Made by a program: the position numbers and the translations under genes. Under the pieces are notes generated by a model, which was not told where the DNA came from, did no database searches, and saw nothing but the letters and a program-made list of their open reading frames with translations. Shown piece after piece: positions 2,135-20,901 of a DNA stretch of 23,883 nt (position 1 is its first letter; each line of letters starts with the position of its first letter). This DNA is from a virus, in the IMG/VR virus record IMGVR_UViG_3300025301_000115, positions 1-23,883 of that record. One strand, given 5' to 3'.

Positions 2135-2152
2135 TCCATTCTCCAGTTAGGA

Positions 2153-2383
2153 CTACGCGATCGATTGTTCTAGTTCAAGTTTTTCCTCAACTTTGCGTCG
2201 GGCGTCGTGAAAGATGTCCTCCCACGTCAACAGCCCGTCGGTTTTTATCATCAATTCGATGGCTTTCTCTACACTTGGCTGACGTACATTCCAGCGCCAC
2301 GCATTGACGGTTCCGGGGGACAGATCCAACATGTGAGCCACTTTTTTCGGTCCCATTTTTGCTACGTATTCAGTTAGTGTCAT
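2153..2383 (-). CDS. Small Cro/YdaS-like helix-turn-helix transcription regulator
   Basis: This 76-aa protein reads as a compact phage repressor. Residues 1-45 hold a helix-turn-helix of Cro/YdaS type: GPKKVAHMLDLSPGTVNAW, then PSVEKAIELM, followed by an acidic helical tail. I chose the ATG at 2383 because an AGGA site lies nine bases upstream. A longer frame from 2446 would begin upstream of the likely transcription start and lacks a binding site. It is the first gene of the leftward operon, ahead of the prim-pol/helicase, and an inverted repeat covers the -10 box of its own promoter. Autoregulation is therefore likely, and it may time the switch between replication genes. That role is inferred; the HTH is seen directly. 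Confidence 0.8.
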   Translation of the reverse strand: MTLTEYVAKMGPKKVAHMLDLSPGTVNAWRWNVRQPSVEKAIELMIKTDGLLTWEDIFHDARRKVEEKLELEQSIA

Positions 2384-2404
2384 GATTGTTTTCCTGTGTT
2401 TAAA

Positions 2405-2428
2405 TTTGTTAGTAGGGATAGTAACAAA
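2405..2428. promoter_or_regulatory. Candidate operator: imperfect inverted repeat
   Basis: Ten-base arms TTTGTTAGTA and TAGTAACAAA, separated by GGGA, are inverted repeats matching at nine of ten positions. The site covers the -10 box of the leftward promoter (2418-2423), where a bound dimeric repressor would block RNA polymerase. The Cro-like gene immediately downstream is the obvious candidate to bind it. No second copy was noticed in the window. Confidence 0.55.
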
Positions 2429-2446
2429 AAGATAGTTGACTTGCAA
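2418..2446 (-). promoter_or_regulatory. Leftward sigma70-type promoter for regulator and prim-pol genes
   Basis: On the minus strand a TTGCAA box (2441-2446) and a TACTAT box (2418-2423) are 17 bases apart, the ideal spacing, each matching four of six consensus bases. The predicted RNA start near 2411 leaves a leader of about 28 bases with an AGGA site before the ATG at 2383. The -35 box overlaps that of the opposite promoter. Confidence 0.5.
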
Positions 2447-2463
2447 AGCCTTTTCGTTATAAA
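2436..2463 (+). promoter_or_regulatory. Rightward sigma70-type promoter for the early operon
   Basis: TTGACT (2436-2441) and TATAAA (2458-2463), 16 bases apart, each match five of six consensus bases. The likely RNA start near 2470 is followed by AGGAG at 2485-2489 and the ATG at 2496. This is the best promoter match in the window and would drive all genes to 5727. Confidence 0.65.
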
Positions 2464-2495
2464 CTTATCACTGCATTATTAAACAGGAGAAAAAA

Positions 2496-2930
2496 ATGAC
2501 CGAACCTTCAAGCACTTCTACGCTTTCTTTGGCTCAACTGAGAGTCCAGAAAGAAAGGCTCGACGAGAAAAAACGGGAACTCACTAAACAAACTCAGGTC
2601 CTGTCCGAACGCATCGCTGCGCATCCGGACCTAGCTCAGACCATCCAAATTTTAAAGCAAAGCGGTGGCTCCAAAACCACTGAACATTTTATCGTTAAGC
2701 TGGGTCGTAAAGAAACCTGGGACCAAACTGTGCTGCAACAAATCTTTGACACGGCAGGCATCAACGAAGCGCTGTGGCCTTTCAAACGGGAATGGATTGT
2801 TGATACGCTGCTGATGAAAAATATAAGACGCGATTGGCCCGACCACTACAACACTTTAACCGACGCTTTAAGAACAAAGATAGACGAGAAACCCTACATA
2901 CGCGTCGTGACACCGAAGGCAACGTCATGA
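2496..2930 (+). CDS. First early-operon protein, unknown function, N-terminal coiled coil
   Basis: The 144-aa product starts at an ATG six bases after AGGAG. Residues 12-45 are rich in Lys, Glu, Gln and Leu (RVQKERLDEKKRELTKQTQ) and read as a coiled coil. The rest is a soluble mixed domain with conserved-looking aromatic residues (WPFKREWIVDTL, IRRDWPDHY). I do not recognise the family. As the first gene after the strong rightward promoter, and directly ahead of DUF3310 and single-strand-DNA genes, it may act in replication or host takeover, but nothing in the sequence proves this. Its stop codon overlaps the next start as ATGA. Confidence 0.75.
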   Translation: MTEPSSTSTLSLAQLRVQKERLDEKKRELTKQTQVLSERIAAHPDLAQTIQILKQSGGSKTTEHFIVKLGRKETWDQTVLQQIFDTAGINEALWPFKREWIVDTLLMKNIRRDWPDHYNTLTDALRTKIDEKPYIRVVTPKATS

Positions 2931-3211
2931 ACACATTAAAAGAATTAATTAAAACTGGCGTCATGAATGAAAACAAAACCTTAGAGGACGTTCATGATTC
3001 CGTAAACCAACCAAGACACTACACTCAAGGAGAGATTGAAAGCATCCAGGCGATTGAAGCCATGCTCGGTCAGAACGGCATTCGTGCCTTCTGTCGTGCC
3101 AGTGCCTTGCAGTACATCTGGCGTGCGCCGGACAAGGGCAAAGTGGAAGATCTAAAAAAAGCCGTGTGGTATCTCAATTACGCCATCGGCACTTACGGGG
3201 GAAAGAAATGA
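2927..3211 (+). CDS. DUF3310 (SaV-like) phage protein
   Basis: This 94-aa protein contains the full signature of the DUF3310 family, common in phage replication regions: VNQPRHYTQGEIESIQAIE near residues 23-41, then FCRASALQYIWRAPDKGKVEDLKKAVWYL. The family's biochemical role is not established. The start at 2927 is preferred because it forms an ATGA overlap with the preceding stop. An internal ATG at 2963 would also keep the whole domain. A longer frame from 2834 would overlap the preceding gene by almost 100 bases and is unlikely. It ends in another ATGA overlap with the next small gene. Confidence 0.85.
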   Translation: MNTLKELIKTGVMNENKTLEDVHDSVNQPRHYTQGEIESIQAIEAMLGQNGIRAFCRASALQYIWRAPDKGKVEDLKKAVWYLNYAIGTYGGKK

Positions 3212-3369
3212 AAGCCAAAAAAATAAGACAGGTTCTTAAAGCTACGGGTATCGATGTTAAAGATGTAGCTTACCGAGACATAACACAGATGAATAGGAAC
3301 GTCACTCGCATCCTAGATACTAACTGTGGCAGAGCAATTTACCAACGAGCCAAAAGAGGGATAGCATGA
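3208..3369 (+). CDS. Small basic 53-aa protein of unknown function
   Basis: The product begins MKAKKIRQVLKATGIDVKDV and is rich in Lys and Arg, so nucleic-acid binding is possible. It starts in an ATGA overlap with DUF3310, with GGGGGAAAG just upstream as binding site, and ends in an ATGA overlap with the ATPase gene. Being locked in place by two such overlaps supports it as real. I do not recognise a family. Confidence 0.65.
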   Translation: MKAKKIRQVLKATGIDVKDVAYRDITQMNRNVTRILDTNCGRAIYQRAKRGIA

Positions 3370-4127
3370 CATTAGAAGGTATAACACAAGGGGTAAGTAT
3401 GGTACCCGTCAAGGTAAACATCTACGGTCCCAATGGCATCGGCAAGAGTACCTGGGCAGCCCAAGCTCCCAAGCCGGTGTTCGTTACCACCGAAGAAGGT
3501 TTGAAGTACATCGACGTACCCCACTTTGAATTGTCCCCGACGTATCAGGACGTGATGGATAAAGTCACACTGCTCGGCAAGGAGAAGCATCCTTATAAGA
3601 CAGTGGTGCTGGACTCTACCGATTTCCTGGAAAGTCTCATCCACGATGCCGTCTGTGAAGACAAGAACGTGGAAGGCATTGAAGCCTTGGGATTCGGTAA
3701 AGGCTTTACGGAATCGGAAGAGAGATGCCGTAAGCTGTTGCGTCTGTTGGATCGACTGCAACAAGTTAAAAAGATGAACATTATCTTAGTGTCACACGCG
3801 GCCATCAGAATTTATGCAGATCCCGAGCGCGAACCTTACGACCGCTGGGAATTGACCACACACAAAAAGATTTCTAATCTCATTCGCAACTGGGTGGATT
3901 TTAATTTCTTTGCCAACTACGAAGTCTCTACGACTTCAGCGGGCAAAGGCTTTAATGAGAAAGCCAGGGCGGTGAGTTACGGAAAAAGAGCGCTGTTTAC
4001 ACAGTTCAGTGCTGCCTATGACGCGAAGTCACGGGTAGCCTTACCAAAGAAACTGCCGCTCGAATGGGATGCGTTTTATAACGCGTATAAAGAAGCACTT
4101 AATATAAAGGAGACTAAAGATGAGTGA
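3366..4127 (+). CDS. AAA_24 / Sak4-like RecA-fold ATPase
   Basis: This 253-aa protein has a single RecA-type ATPase core: Walker A GPNGIGKST at residues 21-29, Walker B VVLDST with D83, and a sensor-like strand IILVSHAA with H144. Length and motif layout fit the phage AAA_24 group, which includes Sak4-type annealing or recombination ATPases. Such genes usually sit beside DUF669 or SSB genes, as here: the next gene starts eight bases before this one ends. The likely role is handling single-stranded DNA during phage replication and recombination. That role is inferred from family and context; the ATPase fold is clear. A true RecA is excluded by length and by lack of its DNA-binding regions. Confidence 0.8.
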   Translation: MTLEGITQGVSMVPVKVNIYGPNGIGKSTWAAQAPKPVFVTTEEGLKYIDVPHFELSPTYQDVMDKVTLLGKEKHPYKTVVLDSTDFLESLIHDAVCEDKNVEGIEALGFGKGFTESEERCRKLLRLLDRLQQVKKMNIILVSHAAIRIYADPEREPYDRWELTTHKKISNLIRNWVDFNFFANYEVSTTSAGKGFNEKARAVSYGKRALFTQFSAAYDAKSRVALPKKLPLEWDAFYNAYKEALNIKETKDE

Positions 4128-4593
4128 TGATTTTAATGTAGAACTGGAAGGAGTTGAAGTTCAGGGTGGTGAGTTTGAAGCCTTCCCCGAGGGCATTTAC
4201 GAAGCCCAAGCTGATACCTGGGAACAACGCGACTCCGCACAAGGCAATAAGATGCTGAAGGTGGCTTTCAAAATTTTGGGACCCGAGTACCAAAACCGTT
4301 TGATCTTTGAGTATTTTGTACTCAATAACCAGGTGGCTTTGTCGAGACTCAAGCAGTGGCGTATCGCCACGGGTGCGGACGGCAACGATCCGTTGAACGG
4401 CGAAAGTATTGCCGATCAAATGCAAGTGCCGTTCACGGCCACGGTGAAGATCAAGAAGAGTGATGATGCAGATTATCCCGATTCCAACACCATTGCCAAT
4501 TTTCGACCACTGCAACAGGATTCAGCTCCTAAAGAGGCAGCGGCAGACACCGCAGCTGACGAAGGAGCGGATGATTCGGATATGCCTTTTTAG
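4120..4593 (+). CDS. DUF669 single-strand-DNA-binding-like protein with SSB-type acidic tip
   Basis: The 157-aa product resembles DUF669 phage proteins: an opening FEAFPEGIYEAQ strand, NKMLKVAFKILGPEYQNRLIFEYF, and a final strand IANFRPLQ. These proteins are thought to act as phage single-strand-binding partners of Sak4-like ATPases. After residue 130 comes a disordered Ala/Asp/Glu tail ending DDSDMPF. This closely resembles the acidic tip of bacterial SSB, which ends DDDIPF and recruits repair and replication proteins. The start overlaps the ATPase gene by eight bases, so the two products are probably made in step. The fold call is by family resemblance; the tail is seen directly. Confidence 0.78.
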   Translation: MSDDFNVELEGVEVQGGEFEAFPEGIYEAQADTWEQRDSAQGNKMLKVAFKILGPEYQNRLIFEYFVLNNQVALSRLKQWRIATGADGNDPLNGESIADQMQVPFTATVKIKKSDDADYPDSNTIANFRPLQQDSAPKEAAADTAADEGADDSDMPF

Positions 4594-4668
4594 GTAACAG
4601 TCTCCGGTCGGGGAGTTCGGGGCATCTTCCTAATAAACAAAATGCCTCACTTTATTAACAGGAGAATT
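4594..4668 (+). other. Short non-coding gap in the early operon
   Basis: This 75-base gap is the only clear break in the rightward operon. It contains GGGGCAT and ATGCCTC arms that could pair in RNA over seven positions, with one wobble and a 16-base loop, and a shorter CTCC/GGAG pair. No T-run follows, so it is not a standard terminator. An AGGAG site for the next gene lies at its right end. Confidence 0.3.
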
Positions 4669-4860
4669 ATGAAATCGAACGACAACACCAAACGCTTGGC
4701 CACGCTCGCCATCAACCGCGTTACTCAATCCCTGGAAAAAACTTACCAAGACCAGGAAATGCCACCCAAAGTACGCCAGGCTTACGAACATGCTGCCAAT
4801 ACTTCGTTGCATTTAGAGCTGGAATTAGATAAAAAGGGGAACGACCATGGGACAAATTAA
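4669..4860 (+). CDS. Small helical 63-aa protein of unknown function
   Basis: The ATG at 4669 follows AGGAG by a normal spacing and is preferred over an in-frame ATG at 4642, which has no binding site. The product (MKSNDNTKRLATLAINRVTQ at the start) is soluble, mostly helical in character and charged. It has no motif I recognise. Its end overlaps the next gene by fourteen bases. Confidence 0.6.
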   Translation: MKSNDNTKRLATLAINRVTQSLEKTYQDQEMPPKVRQAYEHAANTSLHLELELDKKGNDHGTN

Positions 4861-5032
4861 ACTGATGCTATACGATGTGGACGTGACTTACGATCCCGAC
4901 ATCGAAGCCAAATACGGCAAGGAAAAAGCCATTGAGGAATGCTCGAAGGCTTTAATCAAACAGAACACGCGCGTGGATAAGGACCTGATCCGCCAGTGGC
5001 GTAACAATCAAGACTGGACAAATATAATATGA
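4847..5032 (+). CDS. Small 61-aa protein of unknown function
   Basis: The start at 4847 follows an AAGGGGAA stretch. The product begins MGQIKLMLYDVDVTYDPDIE, two apparent beta strands, and then turns helical and charged (KYGKEKAIEECSKALIKQ). I recognise no family. It ends in an ATGA overlap with the next gene. Confidence 0.6.
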   Translation: MGQIKLMLYDVDVTYDPDIEAKYGKEKAIEECSKALIKQNTRVDKDLIRQWRNNQDWTNII

Positions 5033-5337
5033 GCAAAGAAAAAAAAGTAGTGTCTATTAAAATGAGTGACAATCCTAAATACTCGGCGGGAGAAAGGGCG
5101 ATATTTAGAGCCATGGATTTTTACATAGAATTAAAAGAGAAAGAGAGTGAGAGTAAAGATTTCAACCCGTGGGAAGCAACCCATGACTTGTTTTATAACC
5201 TGGCATTAGTGCATTTGTCCTTCGCTAAAAGTCACGAACAAACTGCGCAAGTAATGGCCGTAATTTTGCGGGCGGTTGCGGAAGCAACCGATATGGCGTT
5301 GGAATGTGCTGATAGAGAAAACAATGAGAGCATTTAG
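5029..5337 (+). CDS. Small 102-aa helical protein of unknown function
   Basis: The start overlaps the previous stop as ATGA. The protein looks mainly helical: a charged N-terminus, FRAMDFYIELKEKE, then a more hydrophobic half, ATHDLFYNLALVHLSFAK and VMAVILRAVAEATDMAL. The hydrophobic pattern fits amphipathic helices of a soluble oligomer better than a membrane span. No family is recognised. The GC content here already falls toward that of the virion genes. Confidence 0.6.
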   Translation: MSKEKKVVSIKMSDNPKYSAGERAIFRAMDFYIELKEKESESKDFNPWEATHDLFYNLALVHLSFAKSHEQTAQVMAVILRAVAEATDMALECADRENNESI

Positions 5338-5479
5338 ACAACCAACCAAGATGAACGAACACAAGTCTCCTAAAAAGACTTGTCAGTCCAGGAACAGAAA
5401 TATCGCTACCTCAACGATGAATAAGCACACACGCAGAATGAGGGGTAAGTCTCTGCGTTACAGAGGACAAGGGCGATGA
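5324..5479 (+). CDS. Possible very basic 51-aa protein
   Basis: This frame begins MRAFRQPTKMNEHKSPKKTC, is strongly Lys/Arg-rich and contains two Cys. It starts inside the end of the preceding gene and stops in an ATGA overlap with the HTH-like gene, filling an otherwise empty 138-base gap. The binding site is weak, and the composition could be chance. It may also start at 5351. DNA or RNA binding is only suggested by charge. Confidence 0.35.
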   Translation: MRAFRQPTKMNEHKSPKKTCQSRNRNIATSTMNKHTRRMRGKSLRYRGQGR

Positions 5480-5727
5480 ATCTTAGAGACATACCAGAAA
5501 TCCAAGCTATCCAGATGCGACAGGATATTAGGATGCTTATAGAAGAGTATGGATTTACTTATGTCTCGATAACTAAATACACTGGTTGTAGCGAAAGGGC
5601 AGTAAGGGAATTTTATATAAATCCTACAAGAGGTTTGAGTGAGGAAAACCACAACAAGTTGTATAGGTGGTTAAGTGAAATCAAAGAAGTTATAGAAGAA
5701 GCAGAGGACAAGGACGTTAAATATTGA
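5476..5727 (+). CDS. Small HTH-like protein, last gene of the early operon
   Basis: The 83-aa product has a pattern typical of a helix-turn-helix: MLIEEYGFTYVSITKYTG, then CSERAVREFYINPTRGLSEEN, and a third helix NKLYRWLSEIKEVI. Residues 18-65 therefore probably bind DNA, perhaps as a repressor or as a switch to late expression. The family is not certain. Its stop codon lies in a palindrome where the early and late operons meet. Confidence 0.6.
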   Translation: MNLRDIPEIQAIQMRQDIRMLIEEYGFTYVSITKYTGCSERAVREFYINPTRGLSEENHNKLYRWLSEIKEVIEEAEDKDVKY

Positions 5728-5736
5728 ACGTTCAAT
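5723..5736. terminator. Perfect palindrome between convergent operons, possible two-way terminator
   Basis: ATTGAACGTTCAAT is a perfect 14-base palindrome, and pairing continues outward to 22 bases if one U-G wobble is allowed. It lies between the stop codon of the rightward HTH-like gene (5725-5727) and that of the leftward giant gene (5739-5741). T-rich sequence follows on the plus strand. The stem is AT-rich, so an operator is an alternative to a terminator. Confidence 0.35.
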
Positions 5737-5738
5737 GT

Positions 5739-8700
5739 TTATCTGTTTCTGTCTCGTTCTCTTTCTTCTACGAATTCTTCTATCTGATCAAACATACCTT
5801 TCTCTAAAGCTACCCTAAGTGTTCGTGCCTCACGGAGTAATTCATTACGCAGGTTTTTGATTTCGAGGATTATTTCCCTTTTCTCCTCTGGAGTCCTGTC
5901 GTTATCATTGATGATCAGTTGTTGCAGTTCTCTAATCTCTGCAAGATTTTCGCCCTTGTCGAGAGAAGCTATTTGATTCAATTCTTTTTTAAGGTCTTTT
6001 ACTGTATCCACATATTGAAGCTGATATATGTCGTCATAGTGATAGGCTCTCTTGTCTCCTACCTCTATTAAATCTTCCAATGCCTTTGAATTAGCTAGAA
6101 ATTCATCCGTTAGGTCTTGCAATTTATAGAACTCATTAACCAAGCCACTCGACTCTGCGGGATGAACCAGACCACCAATGAATAATGACTTCTCCCACCC
6201 CGTAGAAGGCTTGGTCGGAGCATCTGGATTAACATAATTGGTTATCAGACCGTCAGCTACCATAGCTATATAAGCACCGTAAGGTCCCGTATATCCCTCC
6301 CATATCTTTTGCACCTGCAAGGGAGACATATTCAAAGCTTCTCCTACCTCCACATAGGCATTCGGAGTAGTTGCCCTGCGTTGTAATTTAGGATCAGTAG
6401 GAGCAGAAGGTCTTTCTGAAACGACAGGTTGTCCTGTGAAGAAATCATAATTAAAGGCTACTTCTACTACAGGTTTAGTCGCTTGTATTTCCCAAGGTGC
6501 CAATTTCAATGTGCCTGTGGCTTGTCGCCACATGGCTTCCCGTACATCCCGCCACGTTTCTCTTTCATCCATTAAACGTAAAAGCATTTCTGGTAAAGTT
6601 CCAAACATAAGTCCCAACTCAAACGGTTTGGGTATTCTCGGTGTGAATCCAAGCCACTTCTTAAAACCGGGTATGATCCAATACAGTTCCCTTTCTTCCT
6701 CCGACATCTCCTTATATTCATCAGAATCCTTGACTGCCATGTAATACAATGGGGTAAGTGACATAAACATAGCGGTTCGGAACCAAACTGCCGTTTGTCT
6801 TTCTCGCTTGGTAAGGGGTTTACCCCCTTTAGCTTTCTTACCGTAAGTACCTGTATAAGCACGGGCAAAAACATCCATCCCTTGCCACCTTGGGTTCTGG
6901 AAGGGTAACAGCGTAGATAAAATCTGAACCAGACGATTCTTACCCCTACGGGTAAAGTTAAGTATTTCCATAGCTTGGAAAATAGCTTCAGCTTCGTCCC
7001 CAGTTTCCTTTAAAATTTCGTTATATACCACTAAGCGAGTCGAGGTATCCGTAATAATAGTACCCTGTCCTAATAAATCCCATACACCCATAAGAATATC
7101 GAAAGGTAATCCTTTTATGCCTTCCACCGATGCAAGGTTTCGTATTCCCGATTGACGATAAGCCTCTTTAACTACCTTGTCGGCATCTTCGTAATCAGCA
7201 ATTACCTGATCATAACGGGTAACAACCCCAGCATTTCTTAATTTAAAATACCCTTCTGGTAACGTCATTTCTTCAGTCACTCCGGGAACCTGTGCCAATA
7301 ATTTACCATTAGCTAATTGCACTGCATTACCCATAGAGCGGAAAACCGTTGACAGGACACCCGTACCCAACAGTGATCCCGCAGTTAATCCGTCTCTCAT
7401 TACTTGTTTTGCCCAGAACACGGGAACTCTGGTAATGGATTCACTGACAACCCGCTTGGGAAAAGCTGCCGCACTTAAAAATCCACCCATAGGCATTTGA
7501 CCGTCAGCAAAATTCTGGAAGGCTTCAAACAAAGGTCTGTCCAATACCCTAAAGGCTTTGTTCTTTCCACCCACTCTGGTCTTTACTACCCTTGAATCCT
7601 TGGAACTTAACGGAACCTGCTCTGCCTGTCCCGCATCAATCATGTTCCTCATAACTCGGTTAGCTGCTACATTCTTCATTCCCAAGACAATAGCTGCCCT
7701 TAGATTCTGGGAGATAGCCGTTATTGGATCGAGGGTTTTCTTGGTTTCACTACCCTTGGCTTTGATAAATATATTCTTACCGAATGGGTGCATCCCTCGA
7801 AAGAGTTGAGGTCCCCTCGTCCTGACATCATCTCCTTCGTCAATAGCGAGTACACGATAGAAGGGGAAATAATCTGCATTAGCTGTCCACTGTTTAGCGG
7901 TTGTTTCATCCAGTACCTGCGTATCCACCAAGAATTTAACAATGTGCTTGTCCCACCTGTCGTAAGCTTTCGAAACATCATTTAACCAAGGATTTTCCTT
8001 TAAAATCTTTTTCGCATCTTTCTTGTCTTGTGCAGTAATTCTGATCTTTCTTCCTTCCTGATCAAATCGAGTTTCACGTTTTACCACTCTAATAGCATTC
8101 CAAAGCCATAAATTATTTGGATTTCTGAATAAAGGACGCATGAATTCCATAGGGGGTATCACAGGTTTGCCGTCCATAGGGGATAACTTTGCTACATGAA
8201 CATAACCCTTATCATAAACTACGGTGCCTTCCATGAAAGCACCTTTCCAAATCTCTCCTGATCTATCTGAAAACATTAAAGCAGATATAGCAGAGGTACT
8301 TGCCAGTAGCTGTTCCTCACCAAAACCTCTTGCTCTTTGTGCTACGGCTTCACTGGTAGCAAATGTGGCATACTGATCCACCAGTTGTTCACGAAGGTTT
8401 TCTATAGTAAAAAACTCCGTAGCTTTTAAAATACTTTCCCCTATCGTAATATCTTCAGCAAGCTCGTCCCTAATGGTAAGCCTACTGATAAGCCTCTCGG
8501 CAACTTCATCTAATTTCTTGCCACCCTTAAGAGAATACTTCTTACGGAGGGCATTCGGTACTTCTACTACAGTATCTTTGGTTAGCTCCTGCGTATAGGC
8601 AATATGGATTGCATCTGCCGAAGCGTTAAGGTTGAATTTAGCGGTGTACCCCGCAGAGACAAGCCTTTCGTTGATGCCCTTGGCACCCTCGATGGCTTCT

Positions 8701-11700
8701 TCTATACTTACTGCTCTTGTTTCTGAGAAGGCTTCTGATACAACTTCTTGAATAGGAGAGTCGCTAGTCTCTCTGATTCTTTCTCCCAGAGTTCCTCGTT
8801 CTCTACCGATAGAAGCGGGTAGGATACCTGTGTCCTCTCTAACGATTTCTTGTCTTTGTTTGCCATTATTGTCTATCCATGCAAATCCGTCATGTGTTAT
8901 ATATTTTACCCTATGATAAGTGTCAGTAGGAGTATTTCCTACACTGGCTATGTAAGAAGGAGGAACTAATCTACCTGTTTGAGTAAATCTTAAAGATGAT
9001 CTAGCTTGAACTAAAGGTTCAGTAACCTCTACAAGTGCAATATTAACTGTATAGCCTAATTCTTTTAGATTACGCACATCATCTAAAACTTGTGCTCTTT
9101 TACCAATCCCACCCACTTTTGGAATAAGTATATCTTTATTCCTTCTGACCATTTCTTGTGTGGCAAGCCTAGATAATACAGAAGCTTCTCTATGAACCGC
9201 ATTTGCCCCTATACCATCTCCGTATTCTGGAATAAAGCGTTTAACATCATCATTATCAATAATAGCTAAATTATTCTCTCTTGCTACGCTCTCAGCAAAA
9301 TATGATTTACCCGCAGCAGGAGGTCCTAGAAAGTACCAAGCGATTTTATTATTACCCACTCTGCCGTCTGCATAGCTTTCTGCTTTCTTTATAGTGGCAT
9401 CAATAACATTCTTCACTCCTTTAACTTTCTTACCGTCAATAACAAATTCCCGGTTGTTTAGGTAAGAAGGATTAAGTGCCCAATTTTCTCCATACCTTTG
9501 TAGGTATTTATCAATAGTTTCGGGAATTTCCATCATGCGTCTTTCTCCCTCTACTATAGCGGGATGTTCCATGAGATCATTAACAGGGGTTCCTGATTCC
9601 AATAACTCTAATAAATTTCTTTTACTCTCAATAAATTCCTGATCAGTAGTAGGGTAGGCTAACTTATATTTAACCTTCTGCCCTATCATGTGAGCAGGAG
9701 TTGGATATTGTTTTAACCTGTCGGTAATCCATTTACCCCTTCTTTTCTCTTCGGGTTGTGCCATGTATTCAGCAAAGTTCTCTCCGTAAGGGAAGCGGTA
9801 AGTATTTCTTGGTACTGTTCTTTCTCTCTCTGCGTATGTGGGGGCATTCTTTATGGCGGGTTCTCCTATTTCACGCAATAAGGTTTCACTGGCAGATGCT
9901 TCTGGAAAGAAATTAAATGGGAAACTAAAATCAGCTAATGTTTTATTAACTTGTTCTTCTGTCGCAGTCACAGTAGGTAGACCAAACTCTTCTGCAAATA
10001 TTTTCTGTTGTGCTTTGAGCTGTTGCGGGGAAGCATCAAGAGATACTTGAGTCATACCCATAAATCGGGTAACTATATCTTTGACTCTATCGAGTGTTTC
10101 TGGAGCCGTGTAATCTACATAATCTAAACTGCCTTGTGCTTCAGCCGTTTCTTTAGCAATCCTTAAACCGTCTGCATCTACTAATAATTCATTTTCCCAA
10201 TAACCTAAAGGCTGAAATGCGTCTATATTGACCAAGACTTCGCTCTTGTCTATTAGCCAAGATTGCAAGCTAAACCTGCCCACTTCATCTTTTCTCATAT
10301 ATGCAAATGCTTTGGCTACTTCAGGACTCAATGTGACAGGCACCACTTCATCTGACTCAATTACTGCACCACCCTGAATACCCCCTCGGTAAACCCTGAT
10401 CTGTTGCGGGAAAGCATCAAGAGATACTTGTGTAATATCTATTATTTCCTGTGCTGCTTTATCTACTTGAGCCTCAGTTAATTCTGGATTATTAGTCGAG
10501 TTCCTAAGATTATCCAATGATTGCTCTAAACGGTTAGGACTTTTGTTTAATACATTGAATACATCACTATAAAGTTCAGAACCAAAAGGAGTTCCTATTG
10601 CCCATGCTGCTTTATCGGGATCATAGGCATCAGCCATATCAAATAAGTCTCCCGTCAGACCAGATAGCTTGTACTTCATTATTGGGAAAGGTTTGCGTGG
10701 AGGGACAGGAATAACTTTACCCGTTCCCGTAGTAAATATTCTTTTATCTGGAGTAGTCGGAGGTTCTTTGGATTCGTATTCTATTTCTTGACTGGGTGCT
10801 GTGATCAATCTGCTTGAACCAACGTGCAAATATTCAGTACCCTCATAAGCGGCTTGTGCCCAAGCTGGAATCCTTCCGTCAAAGAGAATGGCATTATTTA
10901 AAACTACAGAGGGACGATCAATCGTATATGCAGTTATCTTCGACCTGTCGCCCTTGATTTCAAAAGGAGGATTGACAAAGCCATTCGCCATCATTTCCGC
11001 TTCTGACCTGTTATTGGTAACTACGTTAGTGGAGATGCTTCTGTCCACATCTCCTACTCCATAAACTCTAAAGAGAGTGGGGTGTTCTGGGAAGCCTTTC
11101 TCGGCAAGATTTTCTTGAGTGTACTGATAGAGTTGACTTTGAGTTGCCCCTACTTCCTTATTCTGTACTTCCCTACCAAATCTTCTAGTCATATTAGGAT
11201 CGCCAACAATGCCTTTCTCAAAAATAACTTGAGGAATGTGGGCGAGATTATTGCCGTACTCACCAGAACGGGCAGAAAGTGTGAACTCGGAAGTTAGCGA
11301 AGTAGGTCGTCTCTGCTCTTCACTTAGTTTAAATTTTAGATTAGGAATATCTGATAAAGGACGGGTAGGAATGGGAGTTGTAACATCAGCTTCTTCCGAG
11401 AAAGTGTCGTCTGTATCCACTGACTGCCCTGTAGCAGCAGATAACATTGAATAATATGTCTGTTGGTAATGCCTTTCCATTTCAACAGTAGTTCTACTCG
11501 CTGGACGAGATATCTGATACGTCTCTTGGGGTCTGCCGAATTCATCATAACTCTCTACTGTTACCTCTTCTTTCGTAACATCAGTTCGTGTTCGTGCCCC
11601 TATCTCTCCTGAGATAAGCTTGTCGTAAATGTCTTCTGTAGTCTGGAATCCAGCTTCATCAAAGCCACGATAAATACTTTCAAGGAACTTGGTAAAACGA

Positions 11701-14700
11701 TTTGCCAAAGCACGGGGTTGACCTACCACCTTGCTTTTACCTTCATGTATATCCTCTATGAGCATGGCTGATGCTTCTTCTTGTATGTTCTCTGGAGTGG
11801 TGCCAGCATAAACAATTTCGGCAACATCCATGTAAGTCGGGGCACGACCTAACCTGTCCCTTAATTTCATAAACATTGTTTTATCCCCACCGAATATTTC
11901 ATTGACTAGAGAACGGGATATTTTTTTGGTTTTAATGGAGTCTAGGAAATTCTTCTTCTCACTGGGACTAAACAAATCCATATCCACAGCACCGTGCCAA
12001 GATTCATGGGCTAGGGTTTTTAGTAGTTCTTCATATACAGCACCCCAAGTAACGTCTGCCTCACCAGTCTTGTTTTTGGCAGACCGTACTGCGGAAACTA
12101 CGTCCAACATAATCTTTCTTAAAGCGGGATTGAAGACACCAGTTACCTCGCTATCCCTTACGCTGTGTGCCCTTTCTATCTCATTATCCAGCATAGGAAC
12201 TACGTTAAGAGTAATTTCAGGTATATTCATTTCCACCAACGCTTTTTTCAGGTTCTCTAAATAATCTAAATTTTGTTTTAGATTTTCTTGTGCATTTGGA
12301 TCAGTGGCTAAATCTTGTTGGGTTTGTCTGTTGAGCGACCATGCACCGCCCTTATTCAAAACGTACTTGGTTCCCTTCTTATTGATGATTCCAGCACTAA
12401 TCAAATCGTTTCTTAAACGGGTAGCAGTACGCTTGCTATTTATATTATTAGGGTCTAAGCCCAACATACTAGCTATGTGATTAAGAGTGGGGGGATTGCC
12501 GCTAAAGAGGGAATCTACAACTCTGCTGTAGTCTTCTTTAAGCCAAGTTCTGGAAGTGAGATCGGGGAGAGAAATGGTATCCCCTTCGTGTGCTGGAAGG
12601 CTACTCAAAAATGAGTAGATAAATGATTTCTGGGCATTGGAAAGTTTATTGTAATTGCTTTCCCCAGTGAGTCTCTGGGCGAGTCTCTTGAATGTATCAG
12701 ATTTTGTATCAATATTAACATTGAGTTTTTTCTTGAGGTTCTCAAACATTTTACGACTGACTCTCGTAGGTGAATTAACACCCCGTGTCCTGTCGCTGAG
12801 AGAATCAGCTTTAGCCTTCATTAAGATATTGAAGTCTTTTTCGCTAAGAGCTTTTTTAATAACCTGTATGTCAAAGGTGGTAGCATCTCTGCCTACAGCA
12901 TTCAATATACGTTCAAAGGCTGCTTGATTTGAAATTCCAATATCATTGGTTTCCAATTCACCCAGTTCTACGGTATTGAAATAAGGATCGTTAAGGAGGG
13001 AACCTAACTCTACACCGAATTCACTGTCTTGTATTCCCAGTGATTCCAGCGTATCTGATACAAGTTCATTAGAATAACGGGATTGGCTGATGATATTGAA
13101 AGCACCTGATACACCCGCAGCTTCTTCCTCTGTTGCAAAGGATTCGCCCACCTTTCTGTCATGGCTATCCTTTATCTGATAACCGCCCTGACCGTCAGCA
13201 CCTACATAAAACTGATTAGGGGCTATAAGGTTTGGTTTACTGCTTTTAGCAAATGTAGGAATACTGTCCCAGTATTGATTATAGACATCCCAAGCTCTTT
13301 CAAAGAAAGGAATTCCTGTAGTTCGTATGATGCTATCGTTACTTTGGGGATCAAGAACGGCATCCCCCTTATGGGCTAAATGACCCAATCCTTTATCCTT
13401 GGCTTGTTCCATCCTCCTATTAACAGCTTTGTTTACTTTTCTATTTGATTCCTCTTTAGGTGAATAATTCTTATACGCCTGTGCGGTAGCAACCATACCC
13501 AAGGATATATCAGCAGGTACGAAAGCAAATTCACCGATACCTTCCGCTAATACTTCTCCAAAATTAATTAATTGTCCTTCTTCCAAAGTAGCTAACTGGG
13601 CAAAGTATTCAGCTCCTGCTGGAAGAGCTACTTGTGCGGGAGTTTGTAACGCAAAATTTGTCATAAAGCGATTGGCGGGAGAAGGAGTATCACCTACTGC
13701 TCGGAAACCTGCTCTGGGTAAGGTAGCTCCTGTAGGCTTATAAATATAAGGCATGATGCCTCTGGTACTTCTAGTTACTATTGTAGGAGCCATGATTTTA
13801 GTTGCTAAACCACCTGTTAATCCGTCAATGGAACCAATTATCAAGCCTCTGGTATTCGCATAATCTTCTGCTTCTTCTATGAGTTCTTCATTATTAAAGG
13901 TATCAATAATTGAATTACGATCAGTTACGTCCAATCCTTCTGCTTTAAGATATTCATAAAAAGAATGTACGTTTTCTACGCCATAAGAAGCTGCCCCTGT
14001 TGCTAATCCTGTGCCGAGAAAGTTTGTCAATCCAGAATAACCTGCTAAACGCAACGCACCCGCAGTTCCAAAACTAGCCATAAGTATTAAAAGCGTAGAT
14101 GCTCCAGACATCCCCACCACATCACCCATAAAATCCATTTTTTGAGGAGCAGTCAAATCACGAAAAGCTTCCCTTGTGTTTTCCCAACTTCCCTGTCCTG
14201 CGGTAAAGATATACTTAGAAGCATTACTTAGTTCAGCTTCAGCTAAAGCATTTGATCTACGAGCCGACTCAATACCCCGTTCTTCTAAAGATTTATAAAG
14301 TCCCTTCTCTTGCTTCTCAACCTCAATGCCAAATTGGGTAAGGTCTGCTCCTCCGTATATGTTGGGTTCAAAACTGGGTGGCAACGAGGTAATTCTTTCA
14401 GCTATATCTGCTTTTATTTCATCATCTGACTTACCGCTTCCATTTAATATCTTGTCTATTTCTTGAAGACGTAAACTCTCATCATCTGTTAAGGTGCCTC
14501 GAATGTCCTTCATTCTTAATTCGGCATCTTCGTTTTCAAGTGCGTCAATCTGAAAAGCCATTTCCTTTAAGTTATCTAAAGTAGTTTCTCCCCTTGGGGA
14601 CCATTCTTCAAGAACAGTTCTGGCTCCAGTAAAGGATTTACCTAAAAGACTCCAAAAATCTTCTCCTTCTGCTTTAGTAGTTTCTCCGAACCATTCTGCT

Positions 14701-14984
14701 TGTTCGTATCCGCCCTCTTCTACAGGACCAATCTTCAAATCAGTTCGTAACTTTCCCCTCTCATCTTCAGAAAGAACTTTTCCCACAGGAGGTATGAATT
14801 CTTCTTCAATAACTTCTTCAGATACCACTTCATCAGGAGTTTCAATTACCTCTTCTTCCACTTCCTCTTCAACCTGAAGGGGAGTGTTGGCAATATAATT
14901 CTCCAGAGCTTTTAATTTTTGCTCCTCAGATAAATCATCAGGTAGCCAAACTTGACGACCATCTGGAGTGGTTTCTAATCCCAT
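5739..14984 (-). CDS. Giant 3081-aa polyvalent virion protein: protease, ADP-ribosyltransferase, zeta-like kinase and LPD38 regions
   Basis: This is probably an internal virion protein ejected into the host with the DNA. In order: an acidic stretch (37-65); Gly/Ala-rich hydrophobic, membrane-like segments (about 290-340 and 490-520); a winged-helix-like patch (about 833-875); an HESWH zinc-protease motif (H993, E994, H997) with a possible third ligand in EEASA (1069-1073); a possible ADP-ribosyltransferase (R1306, STN 1318-1320, E1384); a better one with R1530, TLS 1551-1553 and ENE 1597-1599; a zeta-toxin-like kinase with GPPAAGKS (1887-1894), DNDD (1910-1913) and R1999/R2005 in RFTQTGR; and an LPD38-like region with FQNPRWQGMDVF (2695 on) and IPKPFELGLMFGTLPE (about 2784-2799). 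A coiled coil ends the chain. The start ATG follows GGAG in the end of the upstream gene. Enzyme activities are inferred from motifs. Confidence 0.85.
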   Translation of the reverse strand: MGLETTPDGRQVWLPDDLSEEQKLKALENYIANTPLQVEEEVEEEVIETPDEVVSEEVIEEEFIPPVGKVLSEDERGKLRTDLKIGPVEEGGYEQAEWFGETTKAEGEDFWSLLGKSFTGARTVLEEWSPRGETTLDNLKEMAFQIDALENEDAELRMKDIRGTLTDDESLRLQEIDKILNGSGKSDDEIKADIAERITSLPPSFEPNIYGGADLTQFGIEVEKQEKGLYKSLEERGIESARRSNALAEAELSNASKYIFTAGQGSWENTREAFRDLTAPQKMDFMGDVVGMSGASTLLILMASFGTAGALRLAGYSGLTNFLGTGLATGAASYGVENVHSFYEYLKAEGLDVTDRNSIIDTFNNEELIEEAEDYANTRGLIIGSIDGLTGGLATKIMAPTIVTRSTRGIMPYIYKPTGATLPRAGFRAVGDTPSPANRFMTNFALQTPAQVALPAGAEYFAQLATLEEGQLINFGEVLAEGIGEFAFVPADISLGMVATAQAYKNYSPKEESNRKVNKAVNRRMEQAKDKGLGHLAHKGDAVLDPQSNDSIIRTTGIPFFERAWDVYNQYWDSIPTFAKSSKPNLIAPNQFYVGADGQGGYQIKDSHDRKVGESFATEEEAAGVSGAFNIISQSRYSNELVSDTLESLGIQDSEFGVELGSLLNDPYFNTVELGELETNDIGISNQAAFERILNAVGRDATTFDIQVIKKALSEKDFNILMKAKADSLSDRTRGVNSPTRVSRKMFENLKKKLNVNIDTKSDTFKRLAQRLTGESNYNKLSNAQKSFIYSFLSSLPAHEGDTISLPDLTSRTWLKEDYSRVVDSLFSGNPPTLNHIASMLGLDPNNINSKRTATRLRNDLISAGIINKKGTKYVLNKGGAWSLNRQTQQDLATDPNAQENLKQNLDYLENLKKALVEMNIPEITLNVVPMLDNEIERAHSVRDSEVTGVFNPALRKIMLDVVSAVRSAKNKTGEADVTWGAVYEELLKTLAHESWHGAVDMDLFSPSEKKNFLDSIKTKKISRSLVNEIFGGDKTMFMKLRDRLGRAPTYMDVAEIVYAGTTPENIQEEASAMLIEDIHEGKSKVVGQPRALANRFTKFLESIYRGFDEAGFQTTEDIYDKLISGEIGARTRTDVTKEEVTVESYDEFGRPQETYQISRPASRTTVEMERHYQQTYYSMLSAATGQSVDTDDTFSEEADVTTPIPTRPLSDIPNLKFKLSEEQRRPTSLTSEFTLSARSGEYGNNLAHIPQVIFEKGIVGDPNMTRRFGREVQNKEVGATQSQLYQYTQENLAEKGFPEHPTLFRVYGVGDVDRSISTNVVTNNRSEAEMMANGFVNPPFEIKGDRSKITAYTIDRPSVVLNNAILFDGRIPAWAQAAYEGTEYLHVGSSRLITAPSQEIEYESKEPPTTPDKRIFTTGTGKVIPVPPRKPFPIMKYKLSGLTGDLFDMADAYDPDKAAWAIGTPFGSELYSDVFNVLNKSPNRLEQSLDNLRNSTNNPELTEAQVDKAAQEIIDITQVSLDAFPQQIRVYRGGIQGGAVIESDEVVPVTLSPEVAKAFAYMRKDEVGRFSLQSWLIDKSEVLVNIDAFQPLGYWENELLVDADGLRIAKETAEAQGSLDYVDYTAPETLDRVKDIVTRFMGMTQVSLDASPQQLKAQQKIFAEEFGLPTVTATEEQVNKTLADFSFPFNFFPEASASETLLREIGEPAIKNAPTYAERERTVPRNTYRFPYGENFAEYMAQPEEKRRGKWITDRLKQYPTPAHMIGQKVKYKLAYPTTDQEFIESKRNLLELLESGTPVNDLMEHPAIVEGERRMMEIPETIDKYLQRYGENWALNPSYLNNREFVIDGKKVKGVKNVIDATIKKAESYADGRVGNNKIAWYFLGPPAAGKSYFAESVARENNLAIIDNDDVKRFIPEYGDGIGANAVHREASVLSRLATQEMVRRNKDILIPKVGGIGKRAQVLDDVRNLKELGYTVNIALVEVTEPLVQARSSLRFTQTGRLVPPSYIASVGNTPTDTYHRVKYITHDGFAWIDNNGKQRQEIVREDTGILPASIGRERGTLGERIRETSDSPIQEVVSEAFSETRAVSIEEAIEGAKGINERLVSAGYTAKFNLNASADAIHIAYTQELTKDTVVEVPNALRKKYSLKGGKKLDEVAERLISRLTIRDELAEDITIGESILKATEFFTIENLREQLVDQYATFATSEAVAQRARGFGEEQLLASTSAISALMFSDRSGEIWKGAFMEGTVVYDKGYVHVAKLSPMDGKPVIPPMEFMRPLFRNPNNLWLWNAIRVVKRETRFDQEGRKIRITAQDKKDAKKILKENPWLNDVSKAYDRWDKHIVKFLVDTQVLDETTAKQWTANADYFPFYRVLAIDEGDDVRTRGPQLFRGMHPFGKNIFIKAKGSETKKTLDPITAISQNLRAAIVLGMKNVAANRVMRNMIDAGQAEQVPLSSKDSRVVKTRVGGKNKAFRVLDRPLFEAFQNFADGQMPMGGFLSAAAFPKRVVSESITRVPVFWAKQVMRDGLTAGSLLGTGVLSTVFRSMGNAVQLANGKLLAQVPGVTEEMTLPEGYFKLRNAGVVTRYDQVIADYEDADKVVKEAYRQSGIRNLASVEGIKGLPFDILMGVWDLLGQGTIITDTSTRLVVYNEILKETGDEAEAIFQAMEILNFTRRGKNRLVQILSTLLPFQNPRWQGMDVFARAYTGTYGKKAKGGKPLTKRERQTAVWFRTAMFMSLTPLYYMAVKDSDEYKEMSEEERELYWIIPGFKKWLGFTPRIPKPFELGLMFGTLPEMLLRLMDERETWRDVREAMWRQATGTLKLAPWEIQATKPVVEVAFNYDFFTGQPVVSERPSAPTDPKLQRRATTPNAYVEVGEALNMSPLQVQKIWEGYTGPYGAYIAMVADGLITNYVNPDAPTKPSTGWEKSLFIGGLVHPAESSGLVNEFYKLQDLTDEFLANSKALEDLIEVGDKRAYHYDDIYQLQYVDTVKDLKKELNQIASLDKGENLAEIRELQQLIINDNDRTPEEKREIILEIKNLRNELLREARTLRVALEKGMFDQIEEFVEERERDRNR
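10020..10049 (-). repeat. 30-bp direct repeat, copy 2 in transcription order
   Basis: This copy matches 10401-10430 at 29 of 30 bases and lies 381 bases (127 codons) away in the same frame. It encodes TQVSLDASPQ at about residues 1646-1655. Together the copies bracket the ADP-ribosyltransferase-like domain of the giant gene. Confidence 0.85.
10401..10430 (-). repeat. 30-bp direct repeat, copy 1 in transcription order
   Basis: This copy encodes TQVSLDAFPQ at about residues 1519-1528, immediately before the IRVYRGG strand of the ADP-ribosyltransferase-like domain. It differs by one base from the copy at 10020-10049. Confidence 0.85.
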
Positions 14985-14985
14985 G

Positions 14986-16497
14986 TTACTCCAGCATTTG
15001 TTGAACGGAAGGCAATCCTACTGGAGTAGGGGTGGACAATACCCTGCCCCCTCCCTGTTGCTTTATTCTAGTAGATTTTTTTATGGCTTGAACTGCATCG
15101 TAAATAGCCTGATTTTTTCGTATTTTTTCTATTTCATCTAGCTGTTCTTGAGTTGGATTTGGTCCATAAGTTGCCTTGGCTATACGCATGATTTCTTTAG
15201 GATCATTTACAACATCCATGATGTTTGACTGATTCTCCACATACTCTGTAGCCTGATCCCAAAGTGCAGCTTCGTGTCTCATTTCGGCACTTATAATAGT
15301 TCCTTGTTGAGAAAGTTCACCTGCAAACCTCGCACCTCGTTCCGTTAATTTTGATTCAAGGACGGGACTTCCTTGTGCATCTAATTTAGGAACACCCTCT
15401 TCCATCACTTGTTCCCATATAACAAATTCATTATCTGAGGTTCCTGCTTTTCCACCGGGAGGACCACTTCCTGCTAATTCCCGAACTATCTGGGTTTTCA
15501 CAGTGAACGCATCAGGCTTAGTCATGTATTGTCCATAAGCCTCTGCCTGTTTAGCTTGAATTCCTAATTGAGCCAACTTGAGTTGTCTATCTCTTTCTGC
15601 TTGAGCCATTGTTGATTGTGCACCTGCTAACGCTAAATCTTCTTTTTCTCCTGCCGCTCTTCGTGAAATAGCTCCCTCTATAACGGGACCCATACTTGCT
15701 GATAACTGTTCTGGAGTTCTCGCAGTACCAACGGCTAATCCTGCTCTGAGCATATTCATCCCTTTACTAAATTTATCCCTTTCTTTTCTTCTTTCAGGGG
15801 AATAGTAATCTAACATCATTTCTTGATAAGCTTTTTCTGCTTCCGTTTGCCCATAGAGGGAAGGGTCAAATTGAGGCATCCCCCCTAGTTGAGGTATTCC
15901 CCCTAGACCGAGTGTGGCATCCTGATAATTTGTTTTACCCAACATGACTCGGTTGGTTCTACCGCCACCTGCCATACCTTCTTCTTCTTCTTCTTCTTTT
16001 TTCTTCATGTAATATTCATAGAGTGCTGGGAGCATTCCCCCCATTGATGTATCGCTTTCTATACCAGCCTCAAGTGCCCCTAAAATTCCAAAAGGAGGTA
16101 ATCTTCCTCCACCTTCCATTCTCATAGGCATTCCTTGAGGCATTCCTTGACCTTGAGGCATTAGGGATTCTAGTCCTCCGCCTTCTATGGAAGCGGGTTG
16201 ATTAACGGGCATTCCTTGAGCCATAGGCATCCCTTGTGGGGGTGCTCCTTGGGACATATTACTGGGCATAATACTAGAGATACCTTCTTGAACTGTTTCT
16301 TCCGCTATAGTAGGACGAGGTGGAGTCTTTTCATGGGCTGCCATACGACCTTTGTAGTCGTCTCTCATTTGTTTCCTGCGTTTGATTTCGGATAACACCA
16401 GATACTGTGGAAAACCACCAGTAGGTGCTTGCATTTCAGTCATTAACCTGTCATCAGGTAATGATTTTATGTCGTCTTCTAGTTGTACTATATTCAT
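14986..16497 (-). CDS. Virion-associated protein, Met/Gly/Gln-rich, unknown function
   Basis: The 503-aa product starts two bases after the preceding gene stops, and its last codons carry the GGAG site for the giant gene. The N-terminal 60 residues are helical and charged. Residues about 75-145 are low complexity, with repeats of QGMP and GGG. A Lys/Glu run (KKKEEEEEE) follows near 167-175. The C-terminal half is helical (STMAQAERDRQLKLAQLGIQAKQAEAY). Similar proteins are familiar next to tail and internal-protein genes of marine phages, so I infer a structural or ejected virion protein. No enzyme motif is seen. Confidence 0.65.
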   Translation of the reverse strand: MNIVQLEDDIKSLPDDRLMTEMQAPTGGFPQYLVLSEIKRRKQMRDDYKGRMAAHEKTPPRPTIAEETVQEGISSIMPSNMSQGAPPQGMPMAQGMPVNQPASIEGGGLESLMPQGQGMPQGMPMRMEGGGRLPPFGILGALEAGIESDTSMGGMLPALYEYYMKKKEEEEEEGMAGGGRTNRVMLGKTNYQDATLGLGGIPQLGGMPQFDPSLYGQTEAEKAYQEMMLDYYSPERRKERDKFSKGMNMLRAGLAVGTARTPEQLSASMGPVIEGAISRRAAGEKEDLALAGAQSTMAQAERDRQLKLAQLGIQAKQAEAYGQYMTKPDAFTVKTQIVRELAGSGPPGGKAGTSDNEFVIWEQVMEEGVPKLDAQGSPVLESKLTERGARFAGELSQQGTIISAEMRHEAALWDQATEYVENQSNIMDVVNDPKEIMRIAKATYGPNPTQEQLDEIEKIRKNQAIYDAVQAIKKSTRIKQQGGGRVLSTPTPVGLPSVQQMLE

Positions 16498-16499
16498 AA

Positions 16500-17417
16500 T
16501 TAACCCATTCCTCCTCCGCCACCGAGGGCTTGATAAAGTCCTAAACCACCGAGTCCTAAACCGAGCATATTCTGTGCGGTAGAAGGTCTAGGTAAATATT
16601 GAGAAACCTGTGTACCGGGCTGTACTGGCAATCCTCTGAGTATTTGTGAATAGAATCCAAGTTGTTGTCTGGGATAAGCTAACTGATCTTGAAACTGCTG
16701 ATAACCGAGATCATATATTCCTTGCTGTTGTGCTTGTCTAGCTGCACCTGCTTGACCTAATTGTTGTAGTCGTTGCATCTCGGCTTGTTGGTCTAATTGT
16801 CCTAAACCGCCTAACTGTTGTGCTGCTCCCATTCGTTGTTGCATTTGCTGTGCTTTCGCTAGTCTATCAGACTCCCACGCTTGTCTTGCCATATCATAAC
16901 CTCTCTGGGAACCTCTGGTTTGTATGTCGGCTTGTAATTGAGCAGCATTTTTTGCTAGTTCGGCTTGCTCTATACCTTCCCGATAACCGCCTAATCCTCC
17001 TGCACCTGCAGCTTGCAATCCAAGTCTAGCTTTTGCAGCATCTGCTTGTGATTGTGCTTGTCTTAGTTCTATATCCGTAACTTTCTGTTGATAAGGATTG
17101 GTATAAGAAGTAATCTCATCAGCAGTCATTTGAGCAGTGGGGTCTTGATAGCCGACTTTGGAAGCTATGTCAGAAGCTTGTTGCATCTGCCAAGGTGTCC
17201 CCGCTGCTGCCATCCCTGCAGCCCCAGTAAATGCTAACTCTTGATAGGGGTCAAATTCTGCGAATCGTTGTCCACCGTAAGGGGTATAGGGTGTAGTAGA
17301 TTCTTCCTCTGTACGAGTTAATAACCTCTCAAAATACGGCTGTGCGTATTCAGGTAAATTAGTTTGTGTTACCGTTGATGTGGTTTCTTGTGGACCACCG
17401 CCTCCGCCTTTACTCAT
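16500..17417 (-). CDS. Virion structural protein, Gln/Ala/Gly-rich, unknown function
   Basis: I place the start at 17417 (MSKGGGGGPQ), which forms an ATGAGTAA overlap with the preceding stop and has AGG upstream. A start six codons earlier is possible. The 305-aa product opens with a Gly stretch, then TSTVTQTNLPEYAQPYFERL and TPYGGQRFAEFDPYQELAF, a style I recall from marine phage structural clusters. A long helical Gln/Ala region follows (about 110-235), and the end is Gly/Leu-rich (MLGLGLGGLGLYQALGGGGG), which could insert into or contact a membrane. Context suggests an internal or tail-tip protein that leaves the virion with the DNA. That is inference. Confidence 0.65.
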   Translation of the reverse strand: MSKGGGGGPQETTSTVTQTNLPEYAQPYFERLLTRTEEESTTPYTPYGGQRFAEFDPYQELAFTGAAGMAAAGTPWQMQQASDIASKVGYQDPTAQMTADEITSYTNPYQQKVTDIELRQAQSQADAAKARLGLQAAGAGGLGGYREGIEQAELAKNAAQLQADIQTRGSQRGYDMARQAWESDRLAKAQQMQQRMGAAQQLGGLGQLDQQAEMQRLQQLGQAGAARQAQQQGIYDLGYQQFQDQLAYPRQQLGFYSQILRGLPVQPGTQVSQYLPRPSTAQNMLGLGLGGLGLYQALGGGGGMG

Positions 17418-17904
17418 TGTTAAACCTCTTTTCAAATACCGTATAAGCCTTCTTCCATTTAAGACGACTTAACCATTTCCAAAAACCGAATCTAGCTGTA
17501 CCTTCAATACCGTCACAACCAGAATCTTTTGCCCATGCTTCCAGCTTCATTCCCAGCATGAAAGCCCATTCTTTAAACTCATTACCACCTATGTACTGAA
17601 TAGCACACATTAAACTATTGGGGTATCTAACAAATTGAGTAGTGGCTACTCCCAATATGTCATTATCATTATTAAACGTAACCCATAATTGTTGTTCATC
17701 TTTTAACAAGGCTTCATGCACAGAATTAATTGTCCAGCGACCTCCTGACTTGATGACTGCCTTTTCTAAATGTGGCTCAACATCTTCCCAAACCGTATGA
17801 ATATAGTGAGCAGGAACTAAAGTTATAATGTAATCAGGATCACTTTCCTTGATCTCAACATAATTAGTATCCTCTTCAAATAAAGCTACTTCTGCTTGGT
17901 TCAT
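17410..17904 (-). CDS. GNAT-like internal virion protein, T7 gp13-like
   Basis: The 164-aa product reads as an acetyltransferase-like fold: an N-terminal helix (HYIHTVWEDVEPHLEKAV), paired strands (QQLWVTFNNDNDILGVATTQF), a long helix (KEWAFMLGMKLEAWAKDSGC), and an end FGFWKWLSRLKWKKAYTVFEKRF that resembles the closing GRxGW...Gf...L pattern of the family. Proteins of this kind in T7-like and marine phages are annotated as gp13-like internal virion proteins. The acetyl-CoA loop is not clear, so enzyme activity is doubtful. It begins in an ATGA overlap with the repeat protein and ends in an eight-base overlap with the next gene. Confidence 0.6.
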   Translation of the reverse strand: MNQAEVALFEEDTNYVEIKESDPDYIITLVPAHYIHTVWEDVEPHLEKAVIKSGGRWTINSVHEALLKDEQQLWVTFNNDNDILGVATTQFVRYPNSLMCAIQYIGGNEFKEWAFMLGMKLEAWAKDSGCDGIEGTARFGFWKWLSRLKWKKAYTVFEKRFNNE

Positions 17905-20900: not shown

Positions 20901-20901
20901 A

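Follow-up and report, generated by a model that had tools for sequence, protein, structure and literature searches.

Here we analyse the 3,081-residue protein encoded at positions 5739–14984 (minus strand) of a 23,883-base stretch of DNA from a marine virus of bacteria (IMG/VR record IMGVR_UViG_3300025301_000115; the whole stretch is called the window below). We propose, with a probability of roughly 0.6, that this giant serves a short-tailed phage as its third ejection protein and is built as a polyvalent protein, the N-terminal part of which would carry enzymes into the cell. The domain architecture, the conservation of active-site residues, the gene slot and the modularity described below were all computed.

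The gene has an ATG start and no internal stop, and a plus-strand reading of the same positions is ruled out by stops throughout. An earlier note, made from the letters of this DNA alone, had recognised the single unbroken frame without stating its strand, which is the minus strand. The protein is organised as follows.

5739..14984, minus strand: polyvalent protein gene, 3,081 amino acids (aa)
13455..14147, minus strand: N-terminal hydrophobic domain, residues ~280–510, conserved across the clade and shared with the giant of Limnohabitans phage DC33
12330..13067, minus strand: conserved middle region, residues ~640–885, from conservation
11565..12332, minus strand: putative zincin-type metallopeptidase, residues ~885–1140, HExxH and distal Glu invariant, fold not confirmed
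11994..12008, minus strand: HESWH motif, residues 993–997
10785..11267, minus strand: ADP-ribosyltransferase (ART)-like segment 1 (ART-1), residues ~1240–1400, no conserved catalytic residues, absent in the relative L022
10110..10487, minus strand: ART-like segment 2 (ART-2), residues ~1500–1625, R1533 / T1551 / E1597-x-E1599, absent in the relatives L102, L104, L105 and L106
8889..9335, minus strand: zeta-type P-loop kinase, residues ~1884–2032, from Pfam
5826..8411, minus strand: constant C-terminal module, residues ~2192–3053, from profile and alignment
6240..6722, minus strand: LPD38 Pfam domain, residues 2755–2915, within the module

The constant module and the variable N-terminal part

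The C-terminus matches LPD38 (PF18857) with an E-value of 1e-28 and 101 bits against a curated cut-off of 27, and this domain is part of a module of about 800 residues. Residues 2192–3053 can be aligned with proteins encoded by phages of E. coli, Vibrio, Aeromonas, Planktothrix, Pelagibacter, Thalassomonas, Achromobacter and Bacillus. Relatives were collected by IMG/VR scans with C-terminal and N-terminal alignments, and they have ~25–46% identity. The module profile falls at the extreme C-terminus in 91 of 91 complete open reading frames (ORFs), with a median of 2 residues after it and between 0 and 2,904 before it, although these 91 are interdependent: the metagenomic and prophage set from IMG/VR that was tested amounts to 24 clusters at 72% identity. 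In this domain-order comparison with other LPD38 proteins, which the earlier note had suggested, the module is C-terminal in all complete frames and the N-terminal domains differ between lineages.

A Pfam scan of the N-terminal parts of 26 LPD38 proteins returned methyltransferases, ddrB-ParB, inorganic pyrophosphatase, ART-PolyVal, RadC, helicases, LPD3, MuF-C and zeta. Within the clade of the window, the protease and kinase segments are constant, while ART-2 is cleanly missing in four relatives and ART-1 in one (see the list above). We read these losses and gains of ART segments as separate cassette events within a fixed frame. Like polyvalent proteins, the giant combines several enzymatic and LPD domains without relation to each other in a single chain, and it lies beside late virion genes, as phage versions do.

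The structure model of the module is mainly helical, with a predicted local distance difference test (pLDDT) score of 72.6 and a predicted template-modelling score of 0.71, and it is matched by 73 predicted viral structures in BFVD at E < 0.001. A hydrophobic stretch recurs in the module across lineages, mostly followed by an acidic residue. Four proteins of 964–970 aa (L088, L091, L094 and L095) consist of little beyond the module; as natural minimal versions, they are suited to structure work.

The gene slot

The giant gene is the last of the late operon and lies behind an ejection protein gene, in agreement with the placement given in the earlier note. Its start follows the stop codon of the gene before it by 1 base and is preceded by GGAG, and its 3′ end faces a convergent early operon. 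The genes upstream of it are the following.

14986..16497, minus strand: 503-aa protein in the place of the second ejection protein (P22 gp20 / T7 gp15), by position only
16500..17435, minus strand: DNA ejection protein (phrog_4287, E 3e-22) in the place of P22 gp7 / T7 gp14, from the PHROG match
17410..17904, minus strand: 164-aa protein in the place of P22 gp14 / T7 gp13, with orthologues in relatives

The earlier note had supposed two likely internal virion proteins upstream. For the gene at 16500–17435 this is borne out by the ejection protein family, while the product of 14986–16497 has no family match.

The gene order is 14-7-20-16 in P22 and 13-14-15-16 in T7, and the giant gene occupies the position of gp16, after the other ejection proteins. 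The gene two upstream encodes the phrog_4287 DNA ejection protein in the window and in L102, L022, L028 and L090; in L111 and L033 it matches this family weakly. Two genes before their own LPD38 giants, VvAW1 and Vibrio phage 1.211.A encode a member of the P22 gp7 family (phrog_598), and HTVC034P encodes an internal virion protein (phrog_418). The P22 gp16 family, which is detected in P22, is absent from 6 of 6 LPD38 phages tested. By profile comparison, the module has no detectable homology to P22 or T7 gp16 (E 0.12 and 1.9), and as it also lacks a fold match in the PDB, we reject it as a gp16 homologue. As the position after the ejection genes is nevertheless kept, the slot is common to the giant and to gp16 of P22 and T7, while the family is different.

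There are two exceptions to this arrangement, so that the ejection slot is ruled out as universal for LPD38. In L087 another virion gene is upstream, and in L089 the giant (1356–12391) is right behind the terminase large subunit and a portal-size 718-aa gene, which is a MuF-type position. The order in L089 would suit a MuF- or portal-type internal head protein, or a DNA-bound passenger, that is delivered from the head without being part of the ejection channel. The absence of gp16 homology, the presence of a siphovirus protein among the BFVD fold matches and the occurrence of MuF_C among the cargo domains point in the same direction. We nevertheless find this explanation unlikely, because the giant follows ejection genes in the clade of the window, in P22-type phages (VvAW1, 1.211.A) and in a T7-type phage (HTVC034P), and because six such phages lack P22 gp16.

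The late-operon position could also mean that the protein is expressed late and acts in the producing cell, by host modification, wall weakening or exclusion of other phages, without being injected. Zeta kinases block wall synthesis (PMC5512222), and the homologue gp25 of phage PTXU04 is among the genes that are toxic on expression or interfere with infection (PMC11879866). The coupling to ejection genes is conserved, however, and the same C-terminal module is common to phages with unrelated cargo, which makes this scenario quite improbable.

The putative N-terminal enzymes

The HESWH motif is the candidate active site of the putative metallopeptidase. H993, E994, H997 and the distal Glu E1070 are invariant in 15 aligned sequences, and also in the more distant giants L028 and L030; an HExxH motif is expected by chance 0.013 times per shuffled protein of the same composition. 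The HExxH helix and distal Glu that characterise zincin-like metallopeptidases are thus both present. PDB sequence searches with the protease profile gave no protease relative, and tblastn of residues 880–1730 against named phages gave nothing.

The invariance of HExxH across the clade raises the option that the metallopeptidase cuts the chain in the producing cell before packaging, such that only a part of it enters the virion. P1 DdrB, for which cleavage has been proposed, provides a precedent (PMC5512222). N4 virion RNA polymerase (vRNAP), ArdC and TraC1, on the other hand, carry a metallopeptidase and are yet packaged or transferred whole (PMC5512222). Early cleavage would be compatible with the ejection proposal, but we think it rather doubtful.

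ART-2 contains, in order, R1533 (VYRG), T1551 (PVT) and E1597-x-E1599 (ENELLV), which corresponds to the signature of R-S-E ARTs (R, S/T, ExE), and the R, P-x-T and E-x-E elements are invariant among the relatives that carry the segment. In ART-1, neither an arginine nor a glutamate pair is conserved among relatives; we therefore read it as a non-catalytic ART-like domain and reject it as an active ART. Judged by its residues, ART-2 is thus the only one of the two ART-like stretches to retain the ART active-site signature. An AlphaFold2 model of residues 870–1780 has a pLDDT of 54 overall (mostly ~80–90 in ART-1 and ~55–69 in ART-2) and shows the same strand/helix order in both segments, while hhalign detects no sequence relation between them. 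The top-probability Foldseek matches of this model in the PDB are ART chains or chains of the same fold (TreTu/TreX, IcmQ, cholera toxin A1 and Vis), with E-values of only 0.07–1 and an output that does not give which of the two segments was matched. Of these, TreTu/TreX are ARTs, and IcmQ has a non-catalytic ART-type domain. A PDB search with the ART-2 profile found no ART relative. ART-PolyVal (PF18760), of the H-Y-D clade, has no match in the window protein or its clade, and three other LPD38 proteins match it.

In the kinase segment, Zeta_toxin (PF06414) matches residues 1887–2018 with an E-value of 2e-10 and 40.9 bits (curated cut-off 22.3), and Walker A, DxDD-K, GANA and R...R...GR are kept in 13 of 13 sequences. 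The domain has weak PDB matches to adenylate and polynucleotide kinases, and a PDB search with the whole protein gave only weak adenylate kinase hits. Like the zeta toxins of epsilon-zeta modules, it is a P-loop kinase above the Zeta_toxin cut-off with a conserved active-site pattern. It differs from them in being an internal domain of a giant chain and in having no antitoxin-like gene next to it; the neighbours are virion genes or convergent early genes, without any antitoxin-family match.

The loss of catalytic residues in ART-1, and the fact that neither the ART segments nor the protease have a Pfam match, might be taken to mean that the giant has a structural role and that its enzyme domains have decayed and no longer catalyse anything. 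Against this, the HExxH, R/T/ExE and kinase residues are invariant despite an overall identity of 20–40%, and we regard such a decay as very improbable.

The earlier note had assigned to this chain an HExxH motif, ART-like motifs, a zeta-toxin-like kinase and an LPD38-like C-terminus, and had read it as a multi-domain polyvalent protein. The motif, the kinase and the C-terminus are all confirmed, the latter two by Pfam matches above the curated cut-offs. Pfam does not recognise the protease or the ART. The multi-domain reading holds in that protease-like, ART-like, zeta-like and LPD38 parts are found on one chain, with the correction that just one of the ART-like segments, ART-2, has a catalytic signature. 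Structure prediction, which the note had called for, gave ART folds as top Foldseek matches, at weak E-values, and did not show the zincin sheet.

Evidence against the proposal

A number of results weigh against an ejected multi-enzyme protein. Besides the slot exceptions in L089 and L087, the missing gp16 homology and the interdependence of the 91 ORFs, the module model has no fold match in the PDB (best E 0.17). The protease segment has no Pfam match in either the window protein or the clade, and the three-stranded sheet of the zincin core is not visible in the low-confidence AlphaFold2 model (870–1780). The ART segments have neither a Pfam nor a PDB sequence match and only weak fold support. 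Finally, we found no virion proteomics of an LPD38 member in the open literature searched, and PDB sequence searches with the whole protein, the module and the N-terminal half gave no ART, protease or module relatives.

Proposed mechanism

What follows on how the protein is packaged, ejected and cleaved, and on the activity, targets and timing of its enzymes, is our inference. The LPD38 module would have a constant job: it would load the chain into the head, exit with the DNA through the tail and probably insert into the envelope of the cell. The ~2,000 residues N-terminal to it would be cargo that is pulled through with the module, and the hydrophobic part near the N-terminus, together with the hydrophobic stretch of the module, may aid entry into the envelope. 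Cleavage of the chain by the metallopeptidase may release separate functional parts, among them an R-S-E-type ART that would modify a host target and a zeta-type kinase that would act on a nucleotide-sugar or nucleic-acid substrate. In PTXU04, infection depends on the homologue gp25, as its knock-down by CRISPRi-ART strongly lowered plating (PMC11879866); this requirement fits an ejection or an effector role alike. N4 vRNAP and T4 Alt provide precedents for such delivery (PMC12633501, PMC5512222).

Relation to known systems

Metallopeptidase, ART, zeta-like and LPD38 domains have each been described individually in polyvalent proteins (Iyer 2017, PMC5512222). We found no description of the exact combination in the main text of that paper or in the other papers searched. 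The LPD38 polyvalent proteins PTXU04 gp25 and that of Planktothrix phage Pag-Yong1 are likewise large multidomain chains near virion genes, and proteins of this type align over the C-terminal ~860 residues at 22–27% identity. According to a report of 2017, genuine polyvalent proteins lack R-S-E ARTs (PMC5512222), an account from which ART-2, going by its residues, would depart. A later survey describes phage fusions of Alt/VIP2-family ARTs with MuF domains (PMC9503650).

The slot is the same for P22 gp16 and T7 gp16, which come behind the first two ejection proteins, and T7 gp16 also has an N-terminal enzyme, a transglycosylase, and hydrophobic regions (PMC8954989). The giant differs from them in lacking detectable sequence homology or a PDB fold match and in being ~2–5 times longer. 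N4 vRNAP (gp50) is a giant ejected protein of ~3,500 residues, arranged as beads on a string and expelled with two other ejection proteins (PMC12633501), and it also contains a metallopeptidase (PMC5512222). The present protein, in contrast, has no RNA polymerase domain by Pfam or PHROG, and no sequence match between the two was found. T4 Alt is an R-S-E ART that is packaged in the head and injected (PMC5512222), but it is outside any polyvalent chain and has no detectable sequence match here.

While the class is known, the constant tail and the swappable enzyme sections suggest a general cargo-delivery design. Tentatively, and with somewhat less than even confidence, we consider the LPD38 module to be a virus-specific unsolved fold that serves as a general third-ejection chassis, with interchangeable enzyme cassettes N-terminal to it that here include an R-S-E ART. 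We found no link of LPD38 proteins to ejection proteins in the main texts of the open papers searched. If correct, the proposal would join the literatures on polyvalent effectors and podovirus ejection proteins, help to explain how very large enzymes enter cells, and mark the LPD38 proteins, of which there are hundreds in IMG/VR, as delivery chassis. Phage protein delivery could then be tested in culture, for example with PTXU04, which is already known to need its homologue.

The window and neighbouring genes

The window is one IMG/VR record without a completeness estimate, and it may therefore be a fragment of the genome. Copies matching at 100% in their best segments are present on two other IMG/VR contigs (L002 and L001), one complete and one partial. 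No relative was found in two GTDB genome scans for a host, a plasmid search returned nothing, and a PADLOC search found no defence family. Between the convergent late and early operons there is one further feature.

5712..5733, strand not assigned: terminator-like stem-loop plus T, pattern match only

Such stem-loop-plus-T sites are no commoner than chance across the scan as a whole.

The giant of phage DC33 (L010 7430–16807, PQ492659.1) has 3,125 aa and shares the N-terminal hydrophobic domain (E 5e-27), without the LPD38 module. Upstream of it are an internal virion protein gene (phrog_418) and one that is endolysin-like. The taxonomy line of PQ492659.1 reads Inoviridae, yet the record has 39 kb and podovirus-type genes, and hence looks misclassified.

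The 164-aa protein at 17410–17904 (minus strand) has orthologues of 54–74% identity at the same position in relatives and no Pfam match; the counterpart position in HTVC034P holds a putative acetyltransferase that weakly matches an internal virion protein family (phrog_308). Further upstream, 17901–20936 (minus strand) encodes a late protein of 1,011 aa that has tandem repeats (TRF periods of 54, 105 and 162 bases), the protein motif QDFQDW/DWSQY and a weak PHROG match (phrog_19741, 1.7e-4). A plus-strand ORF at 18704–19462 crosses this repeat array and is probably spurious. In the convergent operon, a Sak4-like annealing protein (phrog_124; 3366–4127, plus strand) adjoins a DUF669 protein (4120–4593, plus strand), and the two form a probable recombination pair.
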